From contig JALSJP010000001.1 in assembly GCA_026989265.1 (NCBI GenBank), forward strand, positions 62,001 through 126,000: DNA of 64,000 bases, written 5' to 3'. Shown piece after piece: positions 4,465 to 43,860 of the stretch. The DNA comes from Micavibrio sp. Its GTDB lineage: Bacteria > Pseudomonadota > Alphaproteobacteria > Micavibrionales > Micavibrionaceae. Numbering within the stretch: the stretch's first letter is position 1; every line of letters starts with the position of its first letter. The translations under genes were made by a program, and so were the position numbers. Under the pieces are notes generated by a model. It was not told the origin of the DNA. It worked only from the letters and a program-made list of their open reading frames with translations, and ran no database searches.

Positions 4465-4491
4465 ATATAACGCCTCTTATCATCAATACGC

Positions 4492-5274
4492 TCATTTATT
4501 TATATTAAACAAACGGTAAAAATTATCTGTTGTGATTTTGGCGAACTTCTCTGCCTCTAATCCATAAATGTCGGCTAAAAACTCACCTATTTTAGAAACA
4601 TACGCAGGTTCGTTTACCTTGCCACGATATGGAACAGGAGCTAAAAACGGCGCATCCGTTTCTATCAAGACGCGATCTAGCGGCACTATTTTAACAGCAT
4701 CGCGCAGCGCATCCGCTTTTTTAAAGGTCACAATCCCCGAAAAAGAGATATAAAACCCCATATCAAGAGCTTTTTCCGCTAATGATTGGTGAGAGCTAAA
4801 ACAATGCATAACACCCGTCAGATCGCTATATTCACGCATAATATCTATAGTATCTTGCTCCGCATCGCGCGTATGAACAATTAAAGGTAAGTCAGTCTCC
4901 AAACATACCTCAATATGTTTGCGAAAGCTTTGCTGTTGCTCTTGCGGCGTGGAATTATCATAGTAATAATCAAGACCGCTCTCACCAATTGCAATTATTT
5001 TATCACTGGAATTAGCTATCTTTACTATCTTGGATTTGTCGAATGCTTTTTCCTCGGCAAGCCCTGCATCATGAGGGTGAGTACCAATACTGCACCACAC
5101 ATTATCATTGTTATTAGATATATCTAACAGCGTATCTATTTCCTCGGACATACGGCAACAAACGTTAAGCATGCTCGTAACGCCCGCCTTTTTTGCTGCA
5201 TTAATTATGAGCAAAGGCTCGCCCTTTTCCTTAATAGCAGGGTGGGAAAGGTGACAGTGAGAATCAATCCACAT
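4492..5274 (-). CDS. tatD: TatD family metal-dependent DNase
   Basis: The 260-residue TIM-barrel hydrolase has the metal site DSHCHL at residues 4-9, GESGLDYYY, and IETDAPFLAP near the C-terminus, all TatD/YcfH signatures. Members are 3'-5' DNases, some active on RNA, linked to DNA repair or degradation. The start codon directly abuts the metG stop, and the metG-tatD order is frequent in bacteria, indicating a shared transcript. Confidence 0.93.
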   Translation of the reverse strand: MWIDSHCHLSHPAIKEKGEPLLIINAAKKAGVTSMLNVCCRMSEEIDTLLDISNNNDNVWCSIGTHPHDAGLAEEKAFDKSKIVKIANSSDKIIAIGESGLDYYYDNSTPQEQQQSFRKHIEVCLETDLPLIVHTRDAEQDTIDIMREYSDLTGVMHCFSSHQSLAEKALDMGFYISFSGIVTFKKADALRDAVKIVPLDRVLIETDAPFLAPVPYRGKVNEPAYVSKIGEFLADIYGLEAEKFAKITTDNFYRLFNINK

Positions 5275-6831
5275 TTATATAGTCTCTTCATCAATTATGC
5301 GTGGAAACACGCCTTCGGGTTTATTAATTTCTATGCCAGATTTAAGAGCATGGTCAAGGGATATATACGCAAAACTGCGCTCATTTTCTGGGGTTCCTAG
5401 TTGGTCTAAAATCTTTGGCGCGCAATATGGAACTACTGGCTGGACAATAATAGCCAAGCATCTAATGCATTCAGCTAGGACATATAAAACCGTATTCATA
5501 CGCTCAGGGTCGCTCTTTTTAAGCCCCCACGGAGCTTGTGCATCGACATAGATATCGCACGCCCCTACTACACTCCAAATATGCTCAAGAGCGCGGTTGA
5601 TCTTCATATCATCGAAATTCTCGCGCACAGGCTCTAGCATATTATAAGCCTTATCCAACAGCTCTATATCTTGCTTGGCAAGCTCCCCCGCCGCAGGGAT
5701 CTTTCCATCACAATTTTTGTAAATCATTGACAAACTGCGCTGTGCCAAATTCCCTAAACCATTAGCAAGATCAGCATTTATTCGCGCCACCGCTTGTTTA
5801 TGCGAAAAATTACCGTCACTTCCGTGGGATACTTCGCGCATAAGGAAATAGCGAATCTGATCAAGTCCGTAAGTCTCGATAAGCTCATCAGGTGACAAGA
5901 CATTACCAATAGATTTAGACATTTTAACGCCGCTAACATTGATAAAGCCATGCGCGAAAATCACCTTAGGAAGCTCAAGCCCAGCAGAAATCAGGAATGC
6001 TGGCCAATAAACAGCGTGAAAGCGCGTAATATCCTTGCCAATTACATGGTAATCCGCAGACCAATATTTTTGAAAACTCTCGGATTTTTCATTGGGATAG
6101 CCAATTCCTGTCAAATAATTTGTAAGAGCGTCAAGCCACACATACATAACGTGATCCGCGTCATCAGGAACAGCTATTCCCCATTTAAGGCGGCTTTTAT
6201 GACGAGATACGGATAGATCATTAAGCCCGCCCTCTTGTTTTAGAAAAGCCAAAACCTCATTCATGCGGGATATTGGCTGCACCGCCTTAGGATTTTGCTC
6301 ATAATATTCAATTAACTGATTGGTATAATTAGATAATTTAAAGAAGTAGCTAGGCTCTTCCACCCATTCCACCTCTGTGCCAAGCGGGGTAAATTTATTA
6401 CCATCATCATCGGAGGTCAGTTCATCTTCCGTGAAATATCCCTCTTCACGCACAGAATACCAGCCCTCATATTTACCGAGATAGATATCTCCATTATCTT
6501 TTAGTTTATTCCAAATAGCTTGCGAAGCCTTGTAATGACGCTCCTCGGTGGTGCGAATAAAATCATCGTTAGAGATATTAAGTTTTGCCGTCATCTCAAT
6601 AAAAGTAGCAGCATTTTTATCAGCAAAATCTCGAGGCTTCATGCCGTTTTGCTCTGCCGTTTGCGCGACTTTCTCGCCATGCTCATCTGTGCCTGTTAGA
6701 AACATCACATCATAACCATCAAGGCGTTTGAACCGCGCTATAACATCGGTTAATATGCTCTCATAGGCATGCCCTAAATGCGGCACTCCGTTCACATATG
6801 AAATAGCGGTAGTAATGTAAAACTTATCCAA
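5275..6831 (-). CDS. metG: Methionyl-tRNA synthetase
   Basis: The 518-residue class I synthetase has the HIGH-type motif HLGH at 18-21 and KMSKS at 303-307. The connective-peptide region that often holds zinc cysteines reads YSVREEGYF near 125-133, with no cysteines, so this is the zinc-free short form. The C-terminal dimerisation/tRNA-binding domain of longer MetG proteins is absent. It charges tRNA-Met and initiator tRNA. It abuts tatD and follows holB by 27 bp. Confidence 0.96.
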   Translation of the reverse strand: MDKFYITTAISYVNGVPHLGHAYESILTDVIARFKRLDGYDVMFLTGTDEHGEKVAQTAEQNGMKPRDFADKNAATFIEMTAKLNISNDDFIRTTEERHYKASQAIWNKLKDNGDIYLGKYEGWYSVREEGYFTEDELTSDDDGNKFTPLGTEVEWVEEPSYFFKLSNYTNQLIEYYEQNPKAVQPISRMNEVLAFLKQEGGLNDLSVSRHKSRLKWGIAVPDDADHVMYVWLDALTNYLTGIGYPNEKSESFQKYWSADYHVIGKDITRFHAVYWPAFLISAGLELPKVIFAHGFINVSGVKMSKSIGNVLSPDELIETYGLDQIRYFLMREVSHGSDGNFSHKQAVARINADLANGLGNLAQRSLSMIYKNCDGKIPAAGELAKQDIELLDKAYNMLEPVRENFDDMKINRALEHIWSVVGACDIYVDAQAPWGLKKSDPERMNTVLYVLAECIRCLAIIVQPVVPYCAPKILDQLGTPENERSFAYISLDHALKSGIEINKPEGVFPRIIDEETI

Positions 6832-6858
6832 AATATTAAACTCCTATAGAAATAACAG

Positions 6859-8004
6859 CTAATTACCTATCACAAGAAAAGCCCCACGTATAGCATCGCG
6901 CTTATCAAGATTTGAGAAATTCACGCGCTCGAAGTGATTTTTCAGTCCGTCACTTATAGATATAAGCTTTTCAAGGCTTGTTTCATCCATAATTTTTTGT
7001 AACCCCCCACGCTGTAGATAATCGGGAGGGCTGTGCTGTCCCTTAGCTTTTGCAAATAATATTTGGCGAAGCAACCATTGTAATAACTCGGCAAACATGC
7101 GGTATTGCTTATCTTGCGTGGGAGCAGCAAGAGACACGCTAAGCCCATGTATTTTTGCAAAGTTCCAGTTTGGAACATCGCTAAGATGATCTATGATAAT
7201 TGATAATGTTTCAAGCCCGCCGCCATCTGCAAAACGAAGCGCAGTGCCAATACTTCCTTCTGAAAGTGCTGCAAGTGTTTCAAGCTCACTAAAAGACAGG
7301 CTGTGACCTTGTTTGCTCAAAAGCTCATCCATTATATCATTTGATAGAGGATTAAATGCAATATTGCGCGAGCGCGAGCGAATAGTAGGGATAAGCATCC
7401 CCGCCCTATGTGCAATCAATATAATCAAAACATTTGCTGGCGGCTCTTCTAATATCTTCAAAATGGCGTTTTGCGCATTTCTATTCATAGTATCGGCATC
7501 ATCAATAATAACTATGCGCCACCCTCCATCCGAAGAAGTTTTGCGCAAAAATGGCTCTATCTTACGCAAAGCCTCAACTTTTAAAGAAGCATCAAGCTTA
7601 TTCTTGGTGGAATCATAATGCCGCGCGATATAGAGAAAATCCGCATGCCCGCCCGAAGCAATGCGCGAGAATACAGGGTCGTTATAAGCTACATCTAGTG
7701 AAGTTATATCTTGCGCTAAATCGCCGCCGCCAAATAAGCTATCTTGGTTTTGGTTTGCTTTTCCATGTTTTAGCAGAAATCTAGCAAGGCGAAATGCCAT
7801 AGTGCTTTTGCCTATACCGCTTGCACCTGAAAAAATCATAGCATGGGGCATGGTATCTTGCTCATAAAGCTCAAGAAATAGCTTTTCTTGGCTCTCATGA
7901 CCTAGGCAATAGGGCATTAATTTAGGCTCAACCAAGCCTTCTGAAATCGGCTCAGGCGTGCTAGCCTCAGTTTCTATTATTTCTTCATCACCGAATAAAT
8001 CCAT
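6859..8004 (-). CDS. holB: DNA polymerase III delta' subunit (clamp loader)
   Basis: The 381-residue AAA+ protein has a Walker A GASGIGKS at 60-67 and a Walker B-like VIIDDADTMN, then the LKILEEPP loop and PTIRSRSR where other clamp-loader subunits carry the SRC arginine finger (Cys replaced by Ser). The C-terminal domain is poorly conserved. Delta' is part of the complex that opens the beta clamp and loads it on primed DNA. The start directly abuts the tmk stop; tmk-holB is a classic operon pair. Confidence 0.92.
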   Translation of the reverse strand: MDLFGDEEIIETEASTPEPISEGLVEPKLMPYCLGHESQEKLFLELYEQDTMPHAMIFSGASGIGKSTMAFRLARFLLKHGKANQNQDSLFGGGDLAQDITSLDVAYNDPVFSRIASGGHADFLYIARHYDSTKNKLDASLKVEALRKIEPFLRKTSSDGGWRIVIIDDADTMNRNAQNAILKILEEPPANVLIILIAHRAGMLIPTIRSRSRNIAFNPLSNDIMDELLSKQGHSLSFSELETLAALSEGSIGTALRFADGGGLETLSIIIDHLSDVPNWNFAKIHGLSVSLAAPTQDKQYRMFAELLQWLLRQILFAKAKGQHSPPDYLQRGGLQKIMDETSLEKLISISDGLKNHFERVNFSNLDKRDAIRGAFLVIGN

Positions 8005-8646
8005 TCACCCAAGCTTTGCTAAAGTTATATTTTTTATCTCACTAAATATTTCATCAATGCTTTGAGCAGCATTTATAATATGGCATCTGGCATCATTATT
8101 ACGCGCTATTTCCAAAAAACCCTTGCGCAATTTTTCATGGAAATCCATATCCATGCGCTCAAAGCGATCTTCTGTATTGTTTTCAGCCATAAGCCTAGCG
8201 TTAGAGCGCGCAAGCCCTGCTCTAGCGTCAATATCTAAAATAAATGTAAGGTCAGGCGTGAAGTCGTCAATGGAAAGTCGCTCTATCTCTCTTATTTTAT
8301 TAATATTCAAGCCCCTGCCATAGCCTTGATATGCAATAGTAGAATCGGTAAAACGATCACAAATTACTATCTTACCCGCATCTAATGCTGGTAAGATAAG
8401 CTTTTCAATATGCATAGACCTTGCGGCAAATAGCAGTAAAACCTCAGACATCGCGCTCCACTGCCCACCATCACGCTGCACCAGCAAGTTACGAATGCTC
8501 TCCGCCTCAGGCACGCCGCCCGGCTCGCGCGTTATAATAACGTCATGACCTAGCAATAATAACATCTCGCGGAGTTTGGTTATTTGAGTGGTTTTGCCCG
8601 ACCCCTCCCCGCCTTCTAATGATATGAAAACCCCCTTATTAGGCAT
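8005..8646 (-). CDS. tmk: Thymidylate kinase
   Basis: The 213-residue product starts MPNKGVFISLEG with P-loop GGEGSGKTT at 12-20. DRFTDSTIAYQG carries the dTMP-binding DR motif, and the LID region lies near residue 140-160. The frame stays open upstream to 8709, but the chosen ATG overlaps the dacA stop (TAATG), which fits coupled translation and family length. It phosphorylates dTMP to dTDP. It sits between dacA and holB. Confidence 0.95.
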   Translation of the reverse strand: MPNKGVFISLEGGEGSGKTTQITKLREMLLLLGHDVIITREPGGVPEAESIRNLLVQRDGGQWSAMSEVLLLFAARSMHIEKLILPALDAGKIVICDRFTDSTIAYQGYGRGLNINKIREIERLSIDDFTPDLTFILDIDARAGLARSNARLMAENNTEDRFERMDMDFHEKLRKGFLEIARNNDARCHIINAAQSIDEIFSEIKNITLAKLG

Positions 8647-9776
8647 TAGTCCAAATATCCCTGTCCAGTAGTCAAAAGCCGAGCCTTTGCGATTATCTTT
8701 GCAAACCATGGCATTTCTTTAACGCTGTTGCTTGTTATCAAAGGGACTTTTATTGCCTCGCCTTTAGGGGTATGAATTATTACAGTGCCGACTTCTTGCC
8801 CTTTTGAAATTGGTGCTTTTAGGGGGGATTTATATTTGACCTCAATTTTCAAATCGCGTTCAAGTAATTTAGGCACAATAATATTAAGAGACGTTTTAGC
8901 GCGCAGCCCTACAAAATCTCTTGTTCCAAAATAAACCTCTGCTTTATCCAGATCAGCGCCATCATCAAATAGCGATATATTACGAAATCCATTCAAGCCC
9001 CATTGCAGCAATTTGATGGATTGCTGCTTGCGTTCTGCCTTGCTAGCAAGACCATTAATAACAATTATGACGCGCCGCCCATCTTTTACGCCTGTGCCAA
9101 TTAGACCATATCCACCATTTTTTGTATGCCCAGTTTTAAGCCCATCTGCGCCAATATTTGCGTATAATAATGGATTGCGGTTTGCTTGGCTTATTTTGCT
9201 ATAAGTAAATTCTTTTTCCGCGTAATATCCGTAATAATCAGGGAAATTCTTAATCATAGCCGCCGCAAGAATTGCTAGATCACGAGCGGTTGAGTAATGA
9301 TCAGGGTCAGGCCAGCCACTAGCATTCATGAAATGTGAGTTATTCATGCCAAGCTCTTTAGCTTTTATGTTAAGCGCAGCGGCAAAAGAATCTTCATCAC
9401 CGCCAAGCCCTTCTGCCAAAACAATGGTTGCATCATTACCAGATTGAATAATAACGCCGCGAATAAGGTCTTCGACTTTTACTTGTTTGCCCACAGGCAC
9501 AAACATTTTAGATCCGCCCTTGCGCCAAGCTTTTTCACTAACTAAAAACGTATCATCAAGCGATATATTGCCTTTCTTTAAGGCCTCGAACACAAGATAC
9601 ATTGTCATGACTTTACTCATCGAAGAGGTAGGCATCCGCGCATCCGCATTCTTTTCAAACAAAATAGTTCCCGTATTATAATCAATTATAATAGCTTGCT
9701 TTGCCTTTGTTTCAATATTGGAAGCAAAAACCGCACTAGGAAACAACAAGCACAGGAAAAAAAATATTCTTATCAT
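8646..9776 (-). CDS. dacA: D-alanyl-D-alanine carboxypeptidase, penicillin-binding protein 5/6 type
   Basis: The 376-residue product has a signal peptide (cleavage near AVFA/SN, residue 19), then the penicillin-binding triad: SMSK at 52-55 with catalytic Ser52, an SGN motif (QSGNDAT), and KTG (LKTGHTKNGG). A C-terminal beta-sandwich domain follows. It trims the terminal D-Ala from peptidoglycan stem pentapeptides in the periplasm. It lies 13 bp after rlpA and shares the TAATG junction with tmk. Confidence 0.94.
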   Translation of the reverse strand: MIRIFFFLCLLFPSAVFASNIETKAKQAIIIDYNTGTILFEKNADARMPTSSMSKVMTMYLVFEALKKGNISLDDTFLVSEKAWRKGGSKMFVPVGKQVKVEDLIRGVIIQSGNDATIVLAEGLGGDEDSFAAALNIKAKELGMNNSHFMNASGWPDPDHYSTARDLAILAAAMIKNFPDYYGYYAEKEFTYSKISQANRNPLLYANIGADGLKTGHTKNGGYGLIGTGVKDGRRVIIVINGLASKAERKQQSIKLLQWGLNGFRNISLFDDGADLDKAEVYFGTRDFVGLRAKTSLNIIVPKLLERDLKIEVKYKSPLKAPISKGQEVGTVIIHTPKGEAIKVPLITSNSVKEMPWFAKIIAKARLLTTGQGYLD

Positions 9777-9789
9777 TAGATTCTCTTTC

Positions 9790-10680
9790 TTAATCCACGA
9801 TTATACGTGAGTTTTTATAACCATCAGCCAACACCCGCTCTAACAAACCATCTGCCGCCGTGATGTTAGGGGCAGGAAGGCGCACCCTATAATATTTAGC
9901 TCCATCAATTGTAATGGAATGCACCCGCGCGCGCCCATATTTATCCAAAGAGCTTGCAAATTTCATAGCGTTTGAGCGCGAAGTAAATGACCCTGTTTGA
10001 ATAAATACTTTAGGAGTACCTACCGCATATTCTGAAATAACGGGATCAGGGTAGAAGTTGCCGCCCTCTATATGCCCAGGAATAACTCTGCTTTCACTCG
10101 CTAGCCTTACTGGTGTTTTATATGATCTCTTATTCATTGGAATTTCCATCCCGCGTGTGTCTTGTCCATTTTGCGCGGCTTTTGCAACCATACGACTTTC
10201 TGCTTCTAAGACCTTGACACGCACTTTAACAACGCCTTTTCTCTTGAAATCAAGCAGCTCTGCCCCGCGCTTGGACATATCAATAATTCGCCCCCTTGCG
10301 TAAGGCCCCCTATCATTTACGCGCACAATAATGGATTTGCCGTTATCAAGGTTAGTAACACGCACTATGCTTGGAAGTGGCAGGGTTTTATGCGCCGCGG
10401 TCAAATCATTTTGATTGTAAGTCTCGCCATTAGCCGTCATTTTCCCATGGAAATTAGGGCCATACCATGAGGCAATGCCCTTTTTATCATAATCATAATC
10501 CACAGCGGGGTAATATTTTATTCCCTTAATCCTATAAGGTGATCCAATCTTATAATATCCTTTGCTATGGGCATGAGTTCCCATCATTTTTTTACCAAAA
10601 TGTGAGGCTAGCTCAATTCTTGCGCAGCCACTAACAAATGGCAGGGTGAATAAACAAAGAATTAATATTATCTTTTTCAT
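9790..10680 (-). CDS. rlpA: Septal-ring lytic transglycosylase RlpA, lipoprotein with SPOR domain
   Basis: The 296-residue product has a lipoprotein signal with lipobox FVSGC (Cys19). The RlpA double-psi beta-barrel follows (GIASWYGPNFHGKMTANGE, VRVNDRGPYARGR), and a C-terminal SPOR domain (VFIQTGSFTS) binds denuded septal glycan. Family members cleave glycan strands lacking stem peptides at division sites. It directly abuts mltB and precedes dacA by 13 bp, forming a wall-remodelling block. Confidence 0.93.
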   Translation of the reverse strand: MKKIILILCLFTLPFVSGCARIELASHFGKKMMGTHAHSKGYYKIGSPYRIKGIKYYPAVDYDYDKKGIASWYGPNFHGKMTANGETYNQNDLTAAHKTLPLPSIVRVTNLDNGKSIIVRVNDRGPYARGRIIDMSKRGAELLDFKRKGVVKVRVKVLEAESRMVAKAAQNGQDTRGMEIPMNKRSYKTPVRLASESRVIPGHIEGGNFYPDPVISEYAVGTPKVFIQTGSFTSRSNAMKFASSLDKYGRARVHSITIDGAKYYRVRLPAPNITAADGLLERVLADGYKNSRIIVD

Positions 10681-34379: not shown

Positions 34380-34793
34380 ATGAGTGTTAAACCAACCAAT
34401 AATTCCGAAGCAGTTGAATACACAACTAACTTTATTGTTTTCACTGAAGGAGGTGAATTTAAGTGGGCTATCTGTGACTTTATTTCAGGCAATGAATATG
34501 GTGATAATGCTTTTGATATAGACAATAAAATCATAGCTTTAAGAGATGGGGACGGTGCAATATCAAAAGAGCAGCTAGACCTATTAATCAAAGAATATTG
34601 GGAACACCTGCCTAAGGGTATTAAGGGCACTCACCCAAATTATGAAACCATAAAAACAACAAACGATGATGATGATTCATTTACATCTCTAATTGATTTT
34701 GCTGGAGGGGAGACTGAAGCTCTCCAGCTTCTCCATGAAAATGGCTTTGATATGATTGATACAGATGCCCCAAATCAAGAATGCTCGCCATAG
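34380..34793 (+). CDS. Hypothetical acidic protein, first gene of orphan pair
   Basis: I do not recognise this 137-residue protein. It is acidic and soluble-looking, with no signal peptide or membrane segment. The N-terminal half (NFIVFTEGGEFKWAICDF, IDNKIIALRDGDGAISKEQLDLLIKEYW) alternates strands and a helix. A low-complexity NDDDDSF linker precedes a helical tail (LIDFAGGETEALQLLHENGFD). It has its own promoter and ribosome site. Its stop is one base before the ATG of the membrane protein downstream, indicating coupled synthesis and probably joint function. Confidence 0.7.
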   Translation: MSVKPTNNSEAVEYTTNFIVFTEGGEFKWAICDFISGNEYGDNAFDIDNKIIALRDGDGAISKEQLDLLIKEYWEHLPKGIKGTHPNYETIKTTNDDDDSFTSLIDFAGGETEALQLLHENGFDMIDTDAPNQECSP

Positions 34794-34794
34794 T

Positions 34795-36096
34795 ATGATG
34801 GATGAAATCAAACCAAATTTTAAAAAAAGCGCCTCTTCCCAAGAAATACATAGTTGGGACGATCCCTATTGGCAGGAAAAAACGCCAATTGCTCTAATTG
34901 TTCATTCTTTGGCGCAAAAACACAAGGATGTTGAGGAAAATCACCTCGCAAAAAGAAAGGAAATTGTTTCCGATACTGTGCCAGCATTAGTTGGATTATA
35001 TGAGCAATCTATCCCATTACTAGCTTTTACCGCACTAGCTGGAGTTATTGTATATACGCTGCATGCACAGGCAAAGACAAGTGATGAAGAATATCATGAG
35101 TTGCTTAAAATTTGGGCAGAATATAAGAATAACGACAAAGATGAAAATCGCGAATATGCAGAAAACATTGTTAAAGAACGCATTTCAGAAATGAATATCA
35201 AGCTAAGCGATATACATATAACAGATATTGAAGAGCTTAATATTGCTATGAGTTATGCAGAGAAACAAGCTAAAGAGCGTGGTTTGATTCCACACAAAAA
35301 AGTAACAGCCAAAGATGTGCAGCAAATGGACGGAAGGCTAAAGCAAGTGGCAAACAAATATGGTAAAGCAATCACAAATAATATTGTATCACCAGTTTTA
35401 GACACCATGGCTTTTTATGTTGAGGCTACTAAAAGCTGTTTTGCTGACCTTAAAAGTCCCGGGAAAGCTTTTGACGGGGTTGCTGATGGGGTTACCACAA
35501 GTAAGGCTATATTTACTGACAGGCGCTCAACAAGGCAACGCCGAGAGGAGCGCAAGCACCATAAAGAAAAAGTTAAGTTTATAAAGAGGAAAACCGCAGA
35601 GCTTCCAAAATCAACCGTAATTAAAGCAAATATAGCTTTAGAAGCGGCTAAGCGCTATAGCGATATCATTGAAAACATAGAAGACTACAATCCTAAACAA
35701 GGCAAAGCCTTGCTTGGCTTCGGTTTTGCAACGGGGCTTGCTGGTGTTGGTTTAATTGGCTTGGGGGCGAGCGGCGCGGAATCTGTATATGCCGTGAATG
35801 GTTTAGAAGGAAATATACTTCAAATAGGTGCAGGCATATGGGGGCTTGCTCTTGGTATTGGCTCATGGGGACAAACTGGTGGCGGGGCTAAATACTATCA
35901 CGACGCACTGCATGGAGAACGCGCATTAGAGGCGCAAGAGCATAAGTCTCTTGCTAAGTCATATAAAAATCTAGTTGAGGGTGCAAAAAGAAATAAGGAT
36001 AAGCCGCGAGCATCTGCTCTGCCCATTAATTGGAGATCAGATCGTGCGGACTTGCATGTTTTACCTAGATCCCAAGATGATAACACCCCCAGTTAA
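34795..36096 (+). CDS. Hypothetical membrane protein with glycine-rich C-terminal helices, second gene of orphan pair
   Basis: The product is 433 residues from the ATG at 34795, one base after the previous stop; the frame also opens upstream to 34756. Visible regions: a charged N-terminus; a membrane helix near residues 70-90 (PLLAFTALAGVIVYTL); a long helical, charged middle; a very basic stretch near 245-268 (RRSTRQRREERKHHKEK); and two glycine-rich hydrophobic segments near 304-328 and 341-357 (GFGFATGLAGVGLIGLG; IGAGIWGLALGIGSWG). I know no family for it. The closely packed glycines suggest helix-helix packing in a membrane. An effector, toxin or envelope role are all possible. Confidence 0.7.
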   Translation: MMDEIKPNFKKSASSQEIHSWDDPYWQEKTPIALIVHSLAQKHKDVEENHLAKRKEIVSDTVPALVGLYEQSIPLLAFTALAGVIVYTLHAQAKTSDEEYHELLKIWAEYKNNDKDENREYAENIVKERISEMNIKLSDIHITDIEELNIAMSYAEKQAKERGLIPHKKVTAKDVQQMDGRLKQVANKYGKAITNNIVSPVLDTMAFYVEATKSCFADLKSPGKAFDGVADGVTTSKAIFTDRRSTRQRREERKHHKEKVKFIKRKTAELPKSTVIKANIALEAAKRYSDIIENIEDYNPKQGKALLGFGFATGLAGVGLIGLGASGAESVYAVNGLEGNILQIGAGIWGLALGIGSWGQTGGGAKYYHDALHGERALEAQEHKSLAKSYKNLVEGAKRNKDKPRASALPINWRSDRADLHVLPRSQDDNTPS

Positions 36097-36138: not shown

Positions 36139-36924
36139 ATGTATAAAAACACCACCGCATATGTCAGGCTTGCGCGCAACGCTAAAGAAGTAGAAGAGGC
36201 ACAAAAGCTGCGCTATAGAGTGTTTTATGATGAATATGGAGCAAAACCCTGCCCTAAAATGGCTGCCCAAAAACGTGATTTTGATGATTTTGATGAGATA
36301 GCCGATCACCTTATTGTGCTTGTAAAAGACGAGCAAACGGGAGCAGAAAAAATAGTTGGCACATACCGCCTGCTCCGCCAGAATATTGCTAAAAAGCACG
36401 GTAACTTTTATTCCAGCGGTGAATATAATCTTGATAACTTGTTAAATAGTAATCAGTTTTTATTAGAACTCGGGCGTTCTTGCGTGCTAGCCGAATATAG
36501 GACAAAGCCCATACTTAACCTGCTGTGGCAAGGCATAGCAGATTATATCACCGATCATAATATCGATTTGCTATTTGGTTGCGCTAGCTTTCAAGGCGTT
36601 GATATTAATGAAATAGCAGGTCAGCTTTCATATCTACATCACTTTCATTCAACGCCCGAAGATATGCGCCCTATTGCCCTACAAGATCAACATATTGATA
36701 TGAATATAGTCCCAAAAGACACAATAAATGAGCGCAGGGTGTTTGCCTCCCTGCCCCCTTTGATTAAGGGTTATTTAAGGCTAGGGGCTAGCATTGGCGA
36801 GGGCGCAGTTATTGACCACCAATTCAATACAATAGATGTATGTATAGTGGTGCAAACTAGCCTTATGACTGATAGATACCGTAAATATTACGAACGCAAA
36901 ATTCAAAAGACCATGCCAAAATGA
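36139..36924 (+). CDS. olsB: Ornithine N-acyltransferase OlsB (lyso-ornithine lipid synthase)
   Basis: The 261-residue GNAT-fold protein has EAQKLRYRVFYDEYGAKP and LELGRSCVLAEYRTKPILNLLWQGIADYI, matching the OlsB/acetyltransf_5 family, which also resembles autoinducer synthases. It adds a 3-hydroxyacyl chain from ACP to ornithine, giving lyso-ornithine lipid. The downstream gene overlaps by 4 bp and encodes the second acyltransferase, which fixes the pathway. In several bacteria ornithine lipids rise under phosphate limitation; I see no PHO box here. Confidence 0.88.
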   Translation: MYKNTTAYVRLARNAKEVEEAQKLRYRVFYDEYGAKPCPKMAAQKRDFDDFDEIADHLIVLVKDEQTGAEKIVGTYRLLRQNIAKKHGNFYSSGEYNLDNLLNSNQFLLELGRSCVLAEYRTKPILNLLWQGIADYITDHNIDLLFGCASFQGVDINEIAGQLSYLHHFHSTPEDMRPIALQDQHIDMNIVPKDTINERRVFASLPPLIKGYLRLGASIGEGAVIDHQFNTIDVCIVVQTSLMTDRYRKYYERKIQKTMPK

Positions 36925-37688
36925 AACCATATTTGAAATTTATCTTATTTATATTAATAACGATTCCTATTGTGATTTTGCAGTGGGTTTTGCTGCTGTT
37001 TCATAAAGGGCGCGGGGCTTATATTCTACCATATATTTGGCACAAAGCCGTATGTGCTATTTTCCAAATTAAAGTAGAAATCACCGGCAAACCAAGCAAT
37101 CAAGCTCAAACCATTTATGTTAGCAACCATCTATCATATCTCGATATCCCCGTTATAGGCAGCGTTTTGCGCGCCTCATTTGTTGCAAAAAAAGATGTCG
37201 CGTCATGGCCTGTGTTTGGATTACTATCAAAATTACAGCAAACTGCATTTATAAGCCGTGATAGAGCAGATGCTAGGCAAGCTAAGGGTAATCTTGATAA
37301 TATGCTAAATGAAGGGAAGAGCCTTATTATATTCCCCGAAGGAACTTCAACCGATGGCAGGGAAGTTATCCCCTTTAAATCAAGCTTATTTTCTATCGCG
37401 ATGAAAGAAAATTTAAAAGATATATATGTGCAGCCATTTACAATAAAAATGGAAAGTGTGGGTAGCAAACCTGTTGCAAACCAAGAGAACCGTGATTTAT
37501 ACTCTTGGCACATTAATATGGATACACCGCTTGGCGAGCATTTATGGCTATTTGCGCAAAGCCGCGGCGCAGTAATTTTCCTGATTTTTCATGAACCAGT
37601 AAAGGCTCATGATTTTGAAAACAGAAAAACACTTGCCAAAGCATGCCAACAAGCCGTATCAAATGGACTAACAAATAATTTTTCATGA
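36921..37688 (+). CDS. olsA: 1-acyl-glycerol-3-phosphate/lyso-ornithine lipid O-acyltransferase OlsA
   Basis: The 255-residue PlsC-family protein has an N-terminal membrane helix (residues 6-28), the acyltransferase motif NHLSYLDIP (HX4D), the FVAKKDVASWPVFG region and FPEGTSTDG. Pairing with olsB by a 4-bp overlap points to O-acylation of lyso-ornithine lipid; general lysophosphatidate acylation is also possible. It acts at the cytoplasmic face of the inner membrane. Confidence 0.87.
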   Translation: MKPYLKFILFILITIPIVILQWVLLLFHKGRGAYILPYIWHKAVCAIFQIKVEITGKPSNQAQTIYVSNHLSYLDIPVIGSVLRASFVAKKDVASWPVFGLLSKLQQTAFISRDRADARQAKGNLDNMLNEGKSLIIFPEGTSTDGREVIPFKSSLFSIAMKENLKDIYVQPFTIKMESVGSKPVANQENRDLYSWHINMDTPLGEHLWLFAQSRGAVIFLIFHEPVKAHDFENRKTLAKACQQAVSNGLTNNFS

Positions 37689-37697
37689 GGATTTAAA

Positions 37698-37913
37698 ATG
37701 AATATAACCCCCGAAGAAATGGCACAATTAAAAGCCTATCTTGACCGCACATTAAAAACCCCTAACCTTACGGTTAAAATGCGCGAAAAAGCAGCGGATT
37801 CTATCGAAGTCATGGTTGATGGCGAATTTATAGGGCTTATCTATAAGATCGAAGATGAAGGCGAAGTGTCGTTTAGCTTTGAAATGGCTATACTTGATAT
37901 TGATCTTGTTTAA
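37698..37913 (+). CDS. DUF3126 family protein
   Basis: The 71-residue protein begins NITPEEMAQLKAYLDRTLKTP and contains SIEVMVDGEFIGLIYKIEDEGEVSFSF, the DUF3126 pattern seen in alphaproteobacteria at this length. GAGGA lies 7 nt before the ATG and overlaps the olsA stop region, so it is cotranscribed with olsBA. Function is unknown. Confidence 0.85.
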   Translation: MNITPEEMAQLKAYLDRTLKTPNLTVKMREKAADSIEVMVDGEFIGLIYKIEDEGEVSFSFEMAILDIDLV

Positions 37914-38373: not shown

Positions 38374-39753
38374 GTGCTAAAACTAAACCTCATTATTGTA
38401 ACTATTATATTTCTAGGTATATCGCTTGGAGGTAGAGCTGTTATGGCTGCTTGCTCACCTGGAATCCCATGCACTGGCTATGATATATATACCAACACAG
38501 ATTCGGGAACTAATGCTTCTTTTAGTGGCGCAAAAACTGGCACGCCTGCTCCTCACGCAAATGTAACAGGCGCAACAACCAGCGCATGTGATGGTAACTT
38601 TATGAACCAAATTTACAGCCGCGCATTTCTAGAGGGTAGCCGCGAAGTCATTATGAGCGAACAAATAATTCATAAGCCTGACAGCGTTCTCGAATATACC
38701 TGCTTTGACCAATTTATAAATATGGCGGCGCATAATGCTGGCACAGCATTTAGTGAAAGCCAAAAATGGTCAAATACTTCTGTTTCATTGTTAACGGCAG
38801 ATGATACAGCCTCTACAACAATAATAAACCAAACAGCACCAGCAAGTCTGCTCCCAGACCAACTTATGCATTCCGTGTTTTCAGATGAAAGATTAGACAA
38901 TGTGCTAGAAGATTTCTTGTTTGATATTTTGCAAGATTATGTTGATGATAATTTTGACCATACTTTTATGGGTGAGAGTATAATCATTGATAATGATATA
39001 AATACATCCCAAATTGGTGCTAATAGCTATGCATGTACCCATATGGAAACTATATGGAATATTGCGCGCTGCATAGATTTTGGTGAGGATGACAGATTTA
39101 GATCGTTTGAGCATTTAGTGAATTTTGATCCGCGCTCTATTCCTCAATCATGTTCACCTGGTAATGAGTCTGATGACACAATTGAGGCGGGGAATGATAC
39201 TACTAAATATGAAAATGTATCATCTGGTGGTGGAATATTTAGTAAAATGCCTATTGATCTAAAAACCATATTCTACACTGATCCTATAACAGGAGTAGAC
39301 TTAAATTTGGATTTAGATGGTGTAAATAACTGCCCTCCTGCTGGCGGCGCTGTTTCTGGCGTTGAAACAGACATATCAAATGACATAATCAGGGTTGCTA
39401 ATAACTGCGACAGCGAGACGGTGAATGATCAATTAAATATGTATTCATCATTCGATATAATGAAAACATATACAGACATGATAAAGGGTTTTGGTCTATA
39501 TATCCCTGGCACTGGAAATGTCACTGGGATAATAATTTGCTCCGCGCCATTGCCTACGGGGATTCCTGTCATTACATATAATATAACAAACTCATTATCT
39601 GGTGGAATTGACGCAATGGAAAGATCATACGAATTTCACTTTGATCATATTTGCCCAAATGCAGGATGTTATTATCAACCAATTAAAGTTCCATATATTT
39701 GGGGGGCGCCAATACCTGCTGTGGGTACAGGACTGTGCCTACCAATTTTATAA
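38374..39753 (+). CDS. Secreted cysteine-rich protein, paralogue 1 (KPDSVLxYTCFDQ family)
   Basis: The 459-residue product starts with GTG and has a signal peptide (residues 1-25, ending AVMA). A low-complexity Ser/Thr/Gly region (residues 30-70) precedes a conserved block with ACDGN, SRAFLEGSREVI and KPDSVLEYTCFDQ (101-113). A second block reads SYACTHMETIWNIARCIDF (218-236) and ends near IPQSCSP; a C-terminal block reads ICPNAGCYYQP. All three blocks recur in the next gene, with matching cysteines, so both are paralogues with shared disulfides. I do not recognise the family. The middle section (about 265-400) is unique to this copy. Confidence 0.75.
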   Translation: MLKLNLIIVTIIFLGISLGGRAVMAACSPGIPCTGYDIYTNTDSGTNASFSGAKTGTPAPHANVTGATTSACDGNFMNQIYSRAFLEGSREVIMSEQIIHKPDSVLEYTCFDQFINMAAHNAGTAFSESQKWSNTSVSLLTADDTASTTIINQTAPASLLPDQLMHSVFSDERLDNVLEDFLFDILQDYVDDNFDHTFMGESIIIDNDINTSQIGANSYACTHMETIWNIARCIDFGEDDRFRSFEHLVNFDPRSIPQSCSPGNESDDTIEAGNDTTKYENVSSGGGIFSKMPIDLKTIFYTDPITGVDLNLDLDGVNNCPPAGGAVSGVETDISNDIIRVANNCDSETVNDQLNMYSSFDIMKTYTDMIKGFGLYIPGTGNVTGIIICSAPLPTGIPVITYNITNSLSGGIDAMERSYEFHFDHICPNAGCYYQPIKVPYIWGAPIPAVGTGLCLPIL

Positions 39754-39811
39754 ATATTTTGATTATAATGAATAATAGAGTATAAAAATAATGAAGACAA
39801 AGGATATGAAA

Positions 39812-40714
39812 ATGAAATCAGTATTAAGCAAGACTTATTTATGGCTATTGCTATTATTTGCGTTTTCTTTGCCATTAACCCCTTTTGCTGCAAAAGCAGG
39901 ATCAGTAATTGCGGACAGCCCATGCGACAACGCATATTATGAATCCCTAACGGCTCGTGCTTGGCTGGAAGCTCAAAGGGAAATAACCCAAAATCAAAAT
40001 ATAATCCTAAAACCAGATAGTGTATTGCAATATACATGCTTTGACCAGTTAGTGTGGGAACTCGGCGATCACGCCGATGAAATGTTAAGTGAGACCAATT
40101 ACTATGGAACTCCATTAAACACTAGCAGCATGGATAATGCATTAAATAATTTAGTATTAGCATCTATTGGAGCGTTCGCTAGTGGCAACTATACAAGCCT
40201 TAGTTTACTTAGCGGGCACCCTGCTGGAACAGCTATCCAACACAAAGTTTCAGACACATATTCTGGAAGTTCTTCATATAGCTGTGATGTAATGAAGCAA
40301 GTATGGCATGCTGCAAAATGTATTAACTTTATAAACGACGCGGAATATGATGGTTTTCATACATTTAGCGAATATGCAACAAACCCGCTTGATAAGCGTC
40401 ACTTGCCTAGCGCTTGTATGCCATTAATGGGTAATTGGGCAACAAACTTAGCCTCTGCATTAAGCACAGGACCTTGGACAAATGACCCTCTTCAAACATA
40501 TCAAGCGCAAACAACGCCGCAAACTTGTTCTGGTGCTAACTGCCCTTGTAGTGGCAACCCCATACCTACAGGCGTTGTCGTTTCAGGACAAAGTCCTGGC
40601 CCGGCAAGTTATGATGAGAAAATCTGCTTACAACCTGGTTGTCGTTATCACCCTGGTGGATTTCCTCTGGTTCCTAGTGGAAGCGATGTTGCGGAAGGGT
40701 GTTACGGTAATTAG
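39812..40714 (+). CDS. Secreted cysteine-rich protein, paralogue 2 (KPDSVLxYTCFDQ family)
   Basis: The product is 300 residues from the ATG at 39812, which has AAGGA 7 nt upstream; in-frame ATGs at 39791 and 39806 are less well placed. A signal peptide ends near FAAKA. The mature part repeats the blocks of the preceding gene: SPCDNAYY, RAWLEAQREI, KPDSVLQYTCFDQ (67-79), SYSCDVMKQVWHAAKCINF (155-173), LPSACMP and ICLQPGCRYHP near the end. It lacks the long central insert of paralogue 1. It lies 58 bp downstream in the same direction, consistent with tandem duplication and divergence. Function is unknown. Confidence 0.75.
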   Translation: MKSVLSKTYLWLLLLFAFSLPLTPFAAKAGSVIADSPCDNAYYESLTARAWLEAQREITQNQNIILKPDSVLQYTCFDQLVWELGDHADEMLSETNYYGTPLNTSSMDNALNNLVLASIGAFASGNYTSLSLLSGHPAGTAIQHKVSDTYSGSSSYSCDVMKQVWHAAKCINFINDAEYDGFHTFSEYATNPLDKRHLPSACMPLMGNWATNLASALSTGPWTNDPLQTYQAQTTPQTCSGANCPCSGNPIPTGVVVSGQSPGPASYDEKICLQPGCRYHPGGFPLVPSGSDVAEGCYGN

Positions 40715-40731: not shown

Positions 40732-42015
40732 ATGTATCAAATATATAAAATATTAACAGCGCTTAGCACTCCGTTACTTACAGCGATATTAAACAAGCGC
40801 CTTAAGGCAGGTAAGGAAGATCCTAATCGCATTCGGGAAAAGCTATCAATCATTGATAAGCCGCGCCCTGATGGAGATTTAATCTGGATACATGCAGCAA
40901 GTATAGGTGAGGCGCAATCAACATTAGTTATTATCGATAACCTCCTAGCATCAAATAAAAATTTAAACATAATTGTTACAACAGGGACTCTTACCTCCGC
41001 TCAAATAATGGAAGAAAAACTCCCAAAACCGCAAGCATTTCATCAATTTTATCCTTTAGACCATCCTAAATGGGTGGCTAGGTTCGCAAATCACTGGAAC
41101 CCTGATTGCGTTATCTGGATGGAATCAGAATTATGGCCAAACATGCTTCATGAGATTAAACGCCGCAAAATTCCTGCATTTCTTATTAATGCGCATATGT
41201 CAGAAAAATCATTTAGGTCGTGGAAACTATTAAAATCATTAACAAAATCAATGTTATCGGCATTCAACAAAGTGCTTTGTCAGACTGATATAGATAAAAA
41301 GCGGTTTAGCGCACTTGGCGCATCAAATATAGTAGTTACTGATAATTTAAAATATAGCTCCCCTGCCCTTACATATGACAAGGTAAATTTAGATAAACTG
41401 CGCGATATAACTTTGGGGCGGGTAATATGGCTATATGCCAGCACCCATGCGGGCGAGGAAGAAATAGCATGCCGCTCTCATATTGAGCTTAAAAAGCAAT
41501 TTCCTAACTTGCTTACCGTGATAGTGCCGCGCCACCCTGATAGGCGAGATGATATAAAAAATAAATGCAGCGAATTTGGACTTAATATAAAATTTAGAGG
41601 CTTCGAAAAATCACTGCCTAATGTGCATGATGATATATATATCGCTGATACTCTTGGTGAGCTTGGGTTGTTTTATAGGCTTGCGCCGCTTGCTTGTATT
41701 GGCAGGTCATTTAGTGATGATGGCGGTGGCGGACATAATCCTATAGAAGCAGCGCAATTAGGCTGCGCCGTAATTCATGGCAATAATGTTCAAAACCTAC
41801 AAGATATTTTCGAAGAGATGAACAAGGCTAAAGCAGCTATTTGTATAGAGAAACCTGAAAACCTATCCTTAGTAATAGAAACATTACTTAGTGATAATAA
41901 TAAAATGCTTGAGCTACAAAATGCAGGAAAGCAATATGCACAAAATAAAAACAATGTTATAGATGGGGTTATGTCAGAAATAAAACCTGTATTAAGTATT
42001 TTAAATGCCGATTAA
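40732..42015 (+). CDS. waaA: 3-deoxy-D-manno-octulosonic acid (Kdo) transferase
   Basis: The 427-residue product has an N-terminal membrane segment and the Kdo-transferase N domain (IWIHAASIGEAQS, VTTGTLTSAQIM, WMESELWPNML), followed by a GT-B C domain (GHNPIEAAQLGCAVIHG). WaaA attaches Kdo to lipid IVA at the inner membrane. The 3' end overlaps lpxK by 11 bp, and lpxK overlaps the acyltransferase gene, giving a compact lipid A operon. Confidence 0.94.
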   Translation: MYQIYKILTALSTPLLTAILNKRLKAGKEDPNRIREKLSIIDKPRPDGDLIWIHAASIGEAQSTLVIIDNLLASNKNLNIIVTTGTLTSAQIMEEKLPKPQAFHQFYPLDHPKWVARFANHWNPDCVIWMESELWPNMLHEIKRRKIPAFLINAHMSEKSFRSWKLLKSLTKSMLSAFNKVLCQTDIDKKRFSALGASNIVVTDNLKYSSPALTYDKVNLDKLRDITLGRVIWLYASTHAGEEEIACRSHIELKKQFPNLLTVIVPRHPDRRDDIKNKCSEFGLNIKFRGFEKSLPNVHDDIYIADTLGELGLFYRLAPLACIGRSFSDDGGGGHNPIEAAQLGCAVIHGNNVQNLQDIFEEMNKAKAAICIEKPENLSLVIETLLSDNNKMLELQNAGKQYAQNKNNVIDGVMSEIKPVLSILNAD

Positions 42016-42997
42016 AACCCCTAAATTCTGGTATAGGAATAGCCGCTCTACTCCGCCATTAATAGAGCGCATAATGACCCCTTTAAGCATTATTTATAAG
42101 CTCGGGCATAAGCTAAATCTTAGTAAAGCCATTACAAATACAGCTCCTATTCCTGTTATTTGCGTTGGCAATATAACGGCGGGGGGAAGCGGTAAAACCC
42201 CTAGCATCATAGCTTTGCACAAACTTATAGAAAAACACAAAATATATAATGCACCCTATTTTTTATCGCGCGGCTATGGCGGATCAGAAAAATCGCCAAG
42301 ACGCATATCGGTTCATGATGACGCAAATGAAACTGGGGATGAACCATTATTGCTTGCAAGTCATTCAAATACAATAATTTCTGCACGCCGTTATGATGGT
42401 GCAATGCTTGCTTATAATATGGGCGCAGATATTGTTTTAATGGATGATGGCTTTCAAAATCAAAGCCTTTATAAGGATTTGTCATTTATAGTAATTAATG
42501 GAAAAACTGGTCTTGGGAATGGAAAGATGATTCCCGCGGGTCCTTTGCGAGAGTCTGTAGAAGATGCCCTAAAACGCGCCAATGCCGTTATTATAATTGG
42601 TGATGATGAAAGCGATATTAAGACAATAATCCCTAAAAATATTCCTGTATTTAAGGCATATATAAAACCATCAAATATAGATAAGATTGATAGAGATGCC
42701 CCCTATATTGCGTTTGCGGGACTGGCTCATCCGCAGAAATTTCATGATACTTTGTTGGAAAATAATATAAATATAGCTTCTTTCCATGAATTTTCTGACC
42801 ACCATAAATTTTCACCAAAGGAAATAGACCGGCTAATTAAAGAGGCAAAAGATAACGGATCAAAGCTCATTACAACTGAAAAGGACTATATGAGAATCCC
42901 CGATAAATACCGTGAGTTTATCGAATATTTCCCAATAGAGCTAGTTTGGAAAAATGAAGCAGATATATTGCAACTACTTCGAGGACTTAGCAAATGA
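42005..42997 (+). CDS. lpxK: Tetraacyldisaccharide 4'-kinase
   Basis: The 330-residue P-loop kinase has ICVGNITAGGSGKTPS (Walker A near residues 56-64), FLSRGYGGSEKS, LMDDGFQNQSL and a C-terminal half with ITTEKDYMRI, all LpxK signatures. It phosphorylates the 4' position of the lipid A disaccharide at the inner membrane. It overlaps waaA by 11 bp and the next gene by 4 bp. Confidence 0.95.
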   Translation: MPIKTPKFWYRNSRSTPPLIERIMTPLSIIYKLGHKLNLSKAITNTAPIPVICVGNITAGGSGKTPSIIALHKLIEKHKIYNAPYFLSRGYGGSEKSPRRISVHDDANETGDEPLLLASHSNTIISARRYDGAMLAYNMGADIVLMDDGFQNQSLYKDLSFIVINGKTGLGNGKMIPAGPLRESVEDALKRANAVIIIGDDESDIKTIIPKNIPVFKAYIKPSNIDKIDRDAPYIAFAGLAHPQKFHDTLLENNINIASFHEFSDHHKFSPKEIDRLIKEAKDNGSKLITTEKDYMRIPDKYREFIEYFPIELVWKNEADILQLLRGLSK

Positions 42998-43860
42998 AGA
43001 AGGCTAGCTATTTTTTAGAAGGAATATTGCTAAATGCTTTATTTATATTTTTCAAAATACTTCCGCCCAAAACGGCATCTAATATCGGTGGATGGTTAGG
43101 GCGTAATATAGGAGCAAAGCTTGGCACGAGCCGCACTGCGCGCCTCCATATTATGAAGGCTATGCCAGATACTACTCAAGATAAGGCGGACAAGATTATT
43201 GGCGGTATGTGGGATAATTTAGGGCGCATAATAGCAGAATACCCGCATTTAAAGCATATAGGCGCAAATCTCACGACCATAGAAAACAAAGAGGAGTTGG
43301 CAAGTCATATAAATGACCCGCGCCCTATTATATTTATTGGCGGACATATCGGCAATTGGGAGATTAACGGCTCAGCTACTTTTATGCAGCTAGACCACGC
43401 GGTTAATCTGACTTATCGCGCGCCAAATAATCCATGGGCAGATAGGCTGCTTGAAAAAGCGCGGACAATGGGCGGCAAGTTAAAAGCATTCCCAAAATCT
43501 CGAAAAAGCGGCAGACTTCTTATAAATACCCTTAAAAATCACGGCTCTTTAGGTATTTTAATAGATCAAAAATACAATGAAGGCATCGAAGTTGATTTTT
43601 TTGGCATGGCTGCGATGACTAATCCCGTTTTTGTGCAGCTAGCGCAGAAATATAATGCTCTTCTTATTCCTATAAGATGCGTGCGCAAAAAAGGCTGTGA
43701 TTTCAGCCTTATAACCTACGAGCCTATTGATTTATTCGATGACAATGGCGATGCCCTAGAAATAAAAGATGTTATAAAAGATGCTAATGCTCTTTTGGAG
43801 GGGTGGATAAAGGAAAAGCCAGAACAATGGCTATGGCTGCATAAACGCTGGAAAGATTAG
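42994..43860 (+). CDS. Lipid A late acyltransferase, LpxL/HtrB family
   Basis: The 288-residue membrane-anchored acyltransferase has the HX4(D/E) motif in GGHIGNWEING, then LTYRAPNNPWADRLL, GILIDQKYNEGIEVDFFG and a C-terminal EQWLWLHKRWK typical of LpxL/LpxM. It adds a secondary acyl chain to Kdo-lipid IVA. Overlap with lpxK and position after waaA confirm the pathway. Which chain and position it acts on cannot be told from sequence. Confidence 0.9.
   Translation: MKKASYFLEGILLNALFIFFKILPPKTASNIGGWLGRNIGAKLGTSRTARLHIMKAMPDTTQDKADKIIGGMWDNLGRIIAEYPHLKHIGANLTTIENKEELASHINDPRPIIFIGGHIGNWEINGSATFMQLDHAVNLTYRAPNNPWADRLLEKARTMGGKLKAFPKSRKSGRLLINTLKNHGSLGILIDQKYNEGIEVDFFGMAAMTNPVFVQLAQKYNALLIPIRCVRKKGCDFSLITYEPIDLFDDNGDALEIKDVIKDANALLEGWIKEKPEQWLWLHKRWKD

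Follow-up and report, generated by a model that had tools for sequence, protein, structure and literature searches.

A gene pair in an envelope lipid locus

The window, by which we mean the whole 64,000-nucleotide stretch of Micavibrio sp. DNA analyzed here, carries two adjacent plus-strand genes separated by 37 bp. Copy A (P0001; 38374..39753) starts at GTG and encodes a predicted exported protein of 459 residues, in which an N-terminal CxPGIPC linker is followed by a helical cysteine domain, a long insert, and a C-terminal cysteine module. Copy B (P0002; 39791..40714), also predicted to be exported, consists of a helical cysteine domain and a C-terminal beta module. A preliminary description had presented the two as tandem secreted paralogs of 459 and 300 residues that share a series of sequence blocks. 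All of the blocks are present in both proteins, both open reading frames (ORFs) are real, and the paralogy is borne out by BLASTP, which aligned the copies at 27% identity across ~200 residues (E = 2e-22) and returned a second, separate C-terminal match; thus, their likeness is not due to chance. The length given for copy A stands, and that given for copy B holds from an internal ATG, the first ATG yielding 307 residues. Each protein begins with a hydrophobic stretch that ends in an AxA-like site, as judged by eye, and both are apparently exported.

The pair is genuine, but it is not the genome's full complement: a third copy of 468 residues lies on the minus strand 139 kb away (G000:C1:~240.6-241.8 kb, equivalent to L006:10580-11986), where it has no partner gene of the kind described below. 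Third copies, at this and similar loci, lack a partner gene and occupy a second conserved site, adjoining an HtpG-like gene (~640 residues) on the other strand; a small ORF of 140 to 160 residues is also found there, and a 5-aminolevulinate-synthase-like gene is often near.

Upstream of the pair, all on the plus strand, lie genes for an OlsB-like L-ornithine N-alpha-acyltransferase (36139..36924; at 300 of 320 bits, below the NCBIfam cut-off), an OlsA-like lyso-ornithine lipid acyltransferase (36921..37688), a 71-residue ORF (37698..37913) that looks DUF3126-like, and a small protein, P0003 (37855..38352), which we call the partner. Downstream, 40732..43860 of the same strand encodes KdtA (40732-42015), LpxK (42005-42997), and an LpxL/HtrB-type acyltransferase (42994-43860), names that we assigned by sequence recognition. 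Farther upstream (34756-36096, plus strand) is a 446-residue protein that has hydrophobic stretches and matches no family above cut-off. The order OlsB, OlsA, small ORF, partner, copy A, copy B, KdtA, LpxK, LpxL recurs in dozens of loci, with synteny assessed by phmmer. Nearly every syntenic locus has the small ORF (71 to 79 residues), even where the partner is missing, and KdtA still lies 3' of the cysteine gene in other families of the order (G037, G047, and G049, at L173, L079, and L174, respectively; also L081). The pair belongs, as an old and fixed element, to a chromosomal lipopolysaccharide (LPS)/ornithine-lipid locus. The preliminary description had proposed looking for secretion, conjugation, or predation genes next to family members; what the conserved neighborhoods contain is this locus, with no secretion genes.

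In the family tree, A copies and B copies group mostly by position, indicating an old duplication and vertical inheritance, so that we rejected a recent tandem duplication; copy B groups with the single syntenic copy of M. aeruginosavorus ARL-13. Mean identity multiplied by coverage was 34% for copy A, 37% for the partner, 47% for copy B, 48% for LpxK, and 54% for KdtA. Copy A and the partner are thus less conserved than their neighbors, and copy B is close to LpxK. The term "fast-evolving," applied earlier to the linkers of the duplicated genes, suits copy A and the partner and hardly copy B, and the image of a variable accessory duplication gives way to that of an old, vertically inherited, syntenic pair.

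Family status and distribution

Neither copy matched a family in Pfam, NCBIfam, PHROGs, PADLOC, or PDB sequences, and PDB profile searches with both the cysteine family and the partner family found nothing. The family is therefore undescribed in the libraries searched, in agreement with the initial impression that it belonged to no recognized family; the anticipated alternative, a match to a conjugation or pilus component, did not appear in the profile libraries.

The profile search that had been suggested detected the family in 110 of 126 Micavibrionales genomes, representing 44 of 49 genera. Among 385 evenly sampled Alphaproteobacteria, only four genomes have it, all from the window's own family; among 398 evenly sampled Pseudomonadota, the window's genome is the only one. 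All 74 named GTDB loci come from Micavibrio or from metagenome-assembled genomes (MAGs) labeled Alphaproteobacteria or Proteobacteria, and viral contigs, plasmids, and phages yielded no members. These observations, in which absence outside the order refers to the sampled genomes and a pattern-based scan, support restriction of the family to the order that contains the predatory Micavibrio. Most of the genomes are metagenome assembled, and their organisms may or may not be predatory. The cultured obligate epibiotic predator M. aeruginosavorus ARL-13 carries a single copy (L172:10089-11021), whose gene neighborhood is that of the window's pair. The NCBI taxonomy (taxid 349221) lists Micavibrio under Bdellovibrionota (Pseudobdellovibrionaceae), and the window's near relatives are deposited as Alphaproteobacteria MAGs.

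Conserved cysteines

The matching cysteines noted in the pair extend to the family as a whole: nine cysteine columns are each kept in 88 to 99% of 144 members, in all paralog groups. They correspond to residues 72, 110, 221, 233, 260, 389, 427, 432, and 455 of P0001 and to residues 45, 83, 165, 177, 209, 246, 279, 284, and 304 of P0002. This conservation may reflect disulfides; since nine is an odd number, the cysteines cannot all pair within one chain, and at least one must be free or bonded to another molecule. In the P0002 model, five fall in the N-terminal part, predicted to be helical, and four in the C-terminal beta module. The two parts are separable, as the copy A equivalent in L144 consists of two adjoining ORFs (L144:8833-9561 and 9549-9935) with one part each. 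The model of the cysteine domain is poor (pTM 0.38), and so the structure search with P0002, which matched nothing, is uninformative.

Cell wall enzymes fused to copy A in relatives

No enzyme domain was found by Pfam in copy A of the window's species, and M23 peptidase (PF01551) matched neither P0001 nor P0002. About ten related lineages have a copy A with an N-terminal M23 peptidase. PF01551 scored above its curated cut-off in seven of the fusions tested (L055, L072, L079, L128, L155, L174, and L173), and a local profile combined with motifs identified others (L124, L129, L135, L136, and L142). The catalytic HxxxD and HxH/HxD motifs are visible in most of these fusions, some having HxD, and are lost in G037. 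In L115, beta-helix regions take the place of M23. In L107, a 1,259-residue beta-helix ORF (4978-8757), with copy A's usual linker near its end, overlaps copy A (8627-9838), which suggests a frameshift or sequencing error that splits one fusion gene.

Two genomes from another family of the order, G049 and G047, carry a second enzyme type. G049 has two adjoining cassettes, each comprising a partner and a fusion, one lysozyme-like and the other M23; the cysteine domains are identical over their first 194 residues (94% DNA identity), whereas the N-terminal parts are different enzymes. In G047, the lysozyme-like and M23 versions reside at two separate loci, with cysteine domains of 85% DNA identity. 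The lysozyme-like part has a weak PDB match to the lytic transglycosylase of phage endolysin gp144 (E = 0.003), together with a motif; a Transglycosylas assignment in Pfam was rejected, the match reaching only E = 0.12. A constant domain with exchangeable enzymes, each with its own partner, was encountered in G049 and G047 only, and not in the window's genome.

The upstream partner protein

In most loci with two copies, the partner gene immediately precedes copy A, often with a 4-bp overlap. P0003 has 165 residues, with a likely start at an in-frame TTG (position 37906) that would give 148, and the protein is probably exported. Its structure is predicted with confidence (pLDDT 94), and its loop DLNNDGIDE is of the calcium type, following a DLNxDGxxE pattern that is near-invariant in the partner family. 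The model resembles beta-propeller blades, with a best Foldseek E value of 0.02, and the 50 matches listed do not include the structure of XAC2610. That protein is an inhibitor of a lysozyme-like effector, with a propeller topology common to other wall enzyme inhibitors (PMC10933484). Against the XAC2610 family model (NF047539; curated cut-off, 35 bits), P0003 scored 14.7 bits; 12 of 45 partner members matched at E <= 0.1, all below threshold, the best at 3.1e-5 and with a best single score of 19.5 bits. As every match stays under the curated cut-off, we rejected membership; XAC2610 also went undetected in the PDB profile search, and we regard the possible likeness as a lead.

In G047 and G049, partner type follows enzyme type. 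Partners of the same type match between the two genomes (lysozyme-like, 9e-10; M23, 6e-12), compared with 0.001 for the best cross-type match. Enzyme labels cluster strongly on the partner tree, where 5 changes suffice, versus a shuffled mean of 12; across types, the correspondence rests on these two genomes. Weak relatives of the partner in other Alphaproteobacteria have no obvious cell wall enzyme adjoining, and the idea that such relatives lie beside wall enzymes was not supported at the six loci checked. In one alphaproteobacterium outside the order, two adjoining exported proteins with DLNxDGxxE (L186:3932-4357 and 4478-4903) have no wall enzyme beside them.

Interpretation

We tentatively prefer, as the leading candidate, an order-specific envelope carrier or anchor for cell wall enzymes, which the partners may hold in check. 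The cysteine domain, with its helical part and beta module, would be a constant carrier or anchor of the cell envelope, exported past the inner membrane, and in relatives it would hold an M23 endopeptidase or a lysozyme-like enzyme on its N-terminal side. The exported partner encoded upstream would pair with the enzyme and probably restrain it, leaving the producer unharmed, and the module may act on the surface of the predator or within its periplasm, handling cell wall, possibly that of the prey, during epibiotic feeding. In the window's genus, the enzyme of copy A has probably been lost, leaving both copies as the carrier or anchor part; because they carry no enzyme, we infer binding or anchoring as their direct function. 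The proposal that the proteins are surface or secreted factors that meet other cells fits insofar as predicted export, conserved cysteines, wall enzyme fusions, and restriction to a group with predatory Micavibrio are concerned; as a variable duplication, it does not.

Several observations count against the carrier reading. The partner is kept in the window and at about 40 distinct loci beside an enzyme-less copy A, a persistence that enzyme inhibition alone would leave unexplained; the single syntenic copy of ARL-13 has no partner; the weak alphaproteobacterial relatives of the partner lack wall enzyme neighbors; and the pairing of types comes from two genomes.

The main rival, which we consider somewhat unlikely, is a housekeeping role: the cysteine proteins would build or stabilize the cell's own outer membrane or wall, for example, as a tether between the two, the M23 forms would remodel the cell's own wall, and predation would be incidental. 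The site, flanked by ornithine-lipid genes on one side and LPS-core genes on the other, is fixed throughout the window's family, and KdtA still lies next to the gene in other families; this, the near-universal vertical inheritance in the order, and a rate of evolution for copy B about that of LpxK all agree with such a role. However, LPS and wall synthesis occur widely outside the order, yet the family is absent from every genome sampled there; the sequences of copy A and the partner are poorly conserved; and one domain on two enzymes, each with its own partner, would be unusual for self-remodeling enzymes.

A surface adhesin or prey contact scaffold, quite unlikely in our estimation, would use the cysteine domain for binding, with beta-helix, repeat-rich, and M23 parts interchangeable and the upstream protein serving as a chaperone or co-subunit rather than an inhibitor. 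The beta-helix regions of some A copies, helical inserts of about 700 residues in the A copies of L104 and L114, and retention of the partner where the enzyme is absent speak for a scaffold, whereas partner type tracks enzyme type in two genomes and Pfam recognized no adhesin domain in the window's own copies. Cysteine-rich exported proteins do occur in conjugation, pilus, and secretion systems, but a part in such an apparatus is highly improbable here, given conserved neighborhoods without secretion genes and no Pfam or NCBIfam match, and conjugation, pilus, phage, plasmid, and defense origins were rejected because PHROGs, PADLOC, plasmids, phages, and viral contigs gave no matches.

The carrier reading has a bolder form, which we rate as rather unlikely: a predator-specific modular system in which a new disulfide-stabilized carrier, found in the Micavibrio order alone, displays interchangeable wall enzymes, or in some lineages just itself, where predator and prey meet. 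Dedicated partners would protect the producer, and the system would be among the founding elements of epibiotic predation in this lineage. The means by which an epibiotic predator feeds through the prey envelope is stated to be unknown for Bdellovibrio exovorus (PMC11055950). The family described here is order specific, near universal, predicted to be exported, and tied in relatives to wall-cutting enzymes. As a protein domain family without an earlier description, it could be named and modeled, and the single copy in the cultured predator ARL-13 makes a direct knockout and localization test possible.

Comparison with known systems

Like M23 (LytM) endopeptidases, the fusions in related lineages have the peptidase domain N-terminal of the cysteine domain, mostly with catalytic motifs; the differences are that both of the window's proteins lack M23 and that the cysteine domain is in no M23 family. 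In polymorphic toxin and effector-immunity systems, as in the two genomes with both enzyme types, a constant domain is combined with alternative enzymes, each with a neighboring partner; here, however, the constant part lies at the C terminus of proteins encoded at a fixed, syntenic locus, and most of the family lacks an enzyme.

The partner resembles XAC2610 of the XAC2609/XAC2610 pair of Xanthomonas citri, and also the inhibitors PliI and Tsi1, in being small, exported (as predicted), and beta-rich, with an acidic calcium-type loop, in its subthreshold family similarity, and in lying beside a cell wall hydrolase gene in some relatives. It differs in that no match exceeds the curated cut-off, no lipobox was seen in P0003, the enzyme is usually absent, and no type IV secretion system is reported in ARL-13. 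The protector that accompanies the predatory wall enzymes of Bdellovibrio is described as being of the ankyrin type (PMC4686830) and belongs to a different lineage, and we claim no sequence relation to it; the two systems would be alike in that a predator guards itself from its own wall enzymes.
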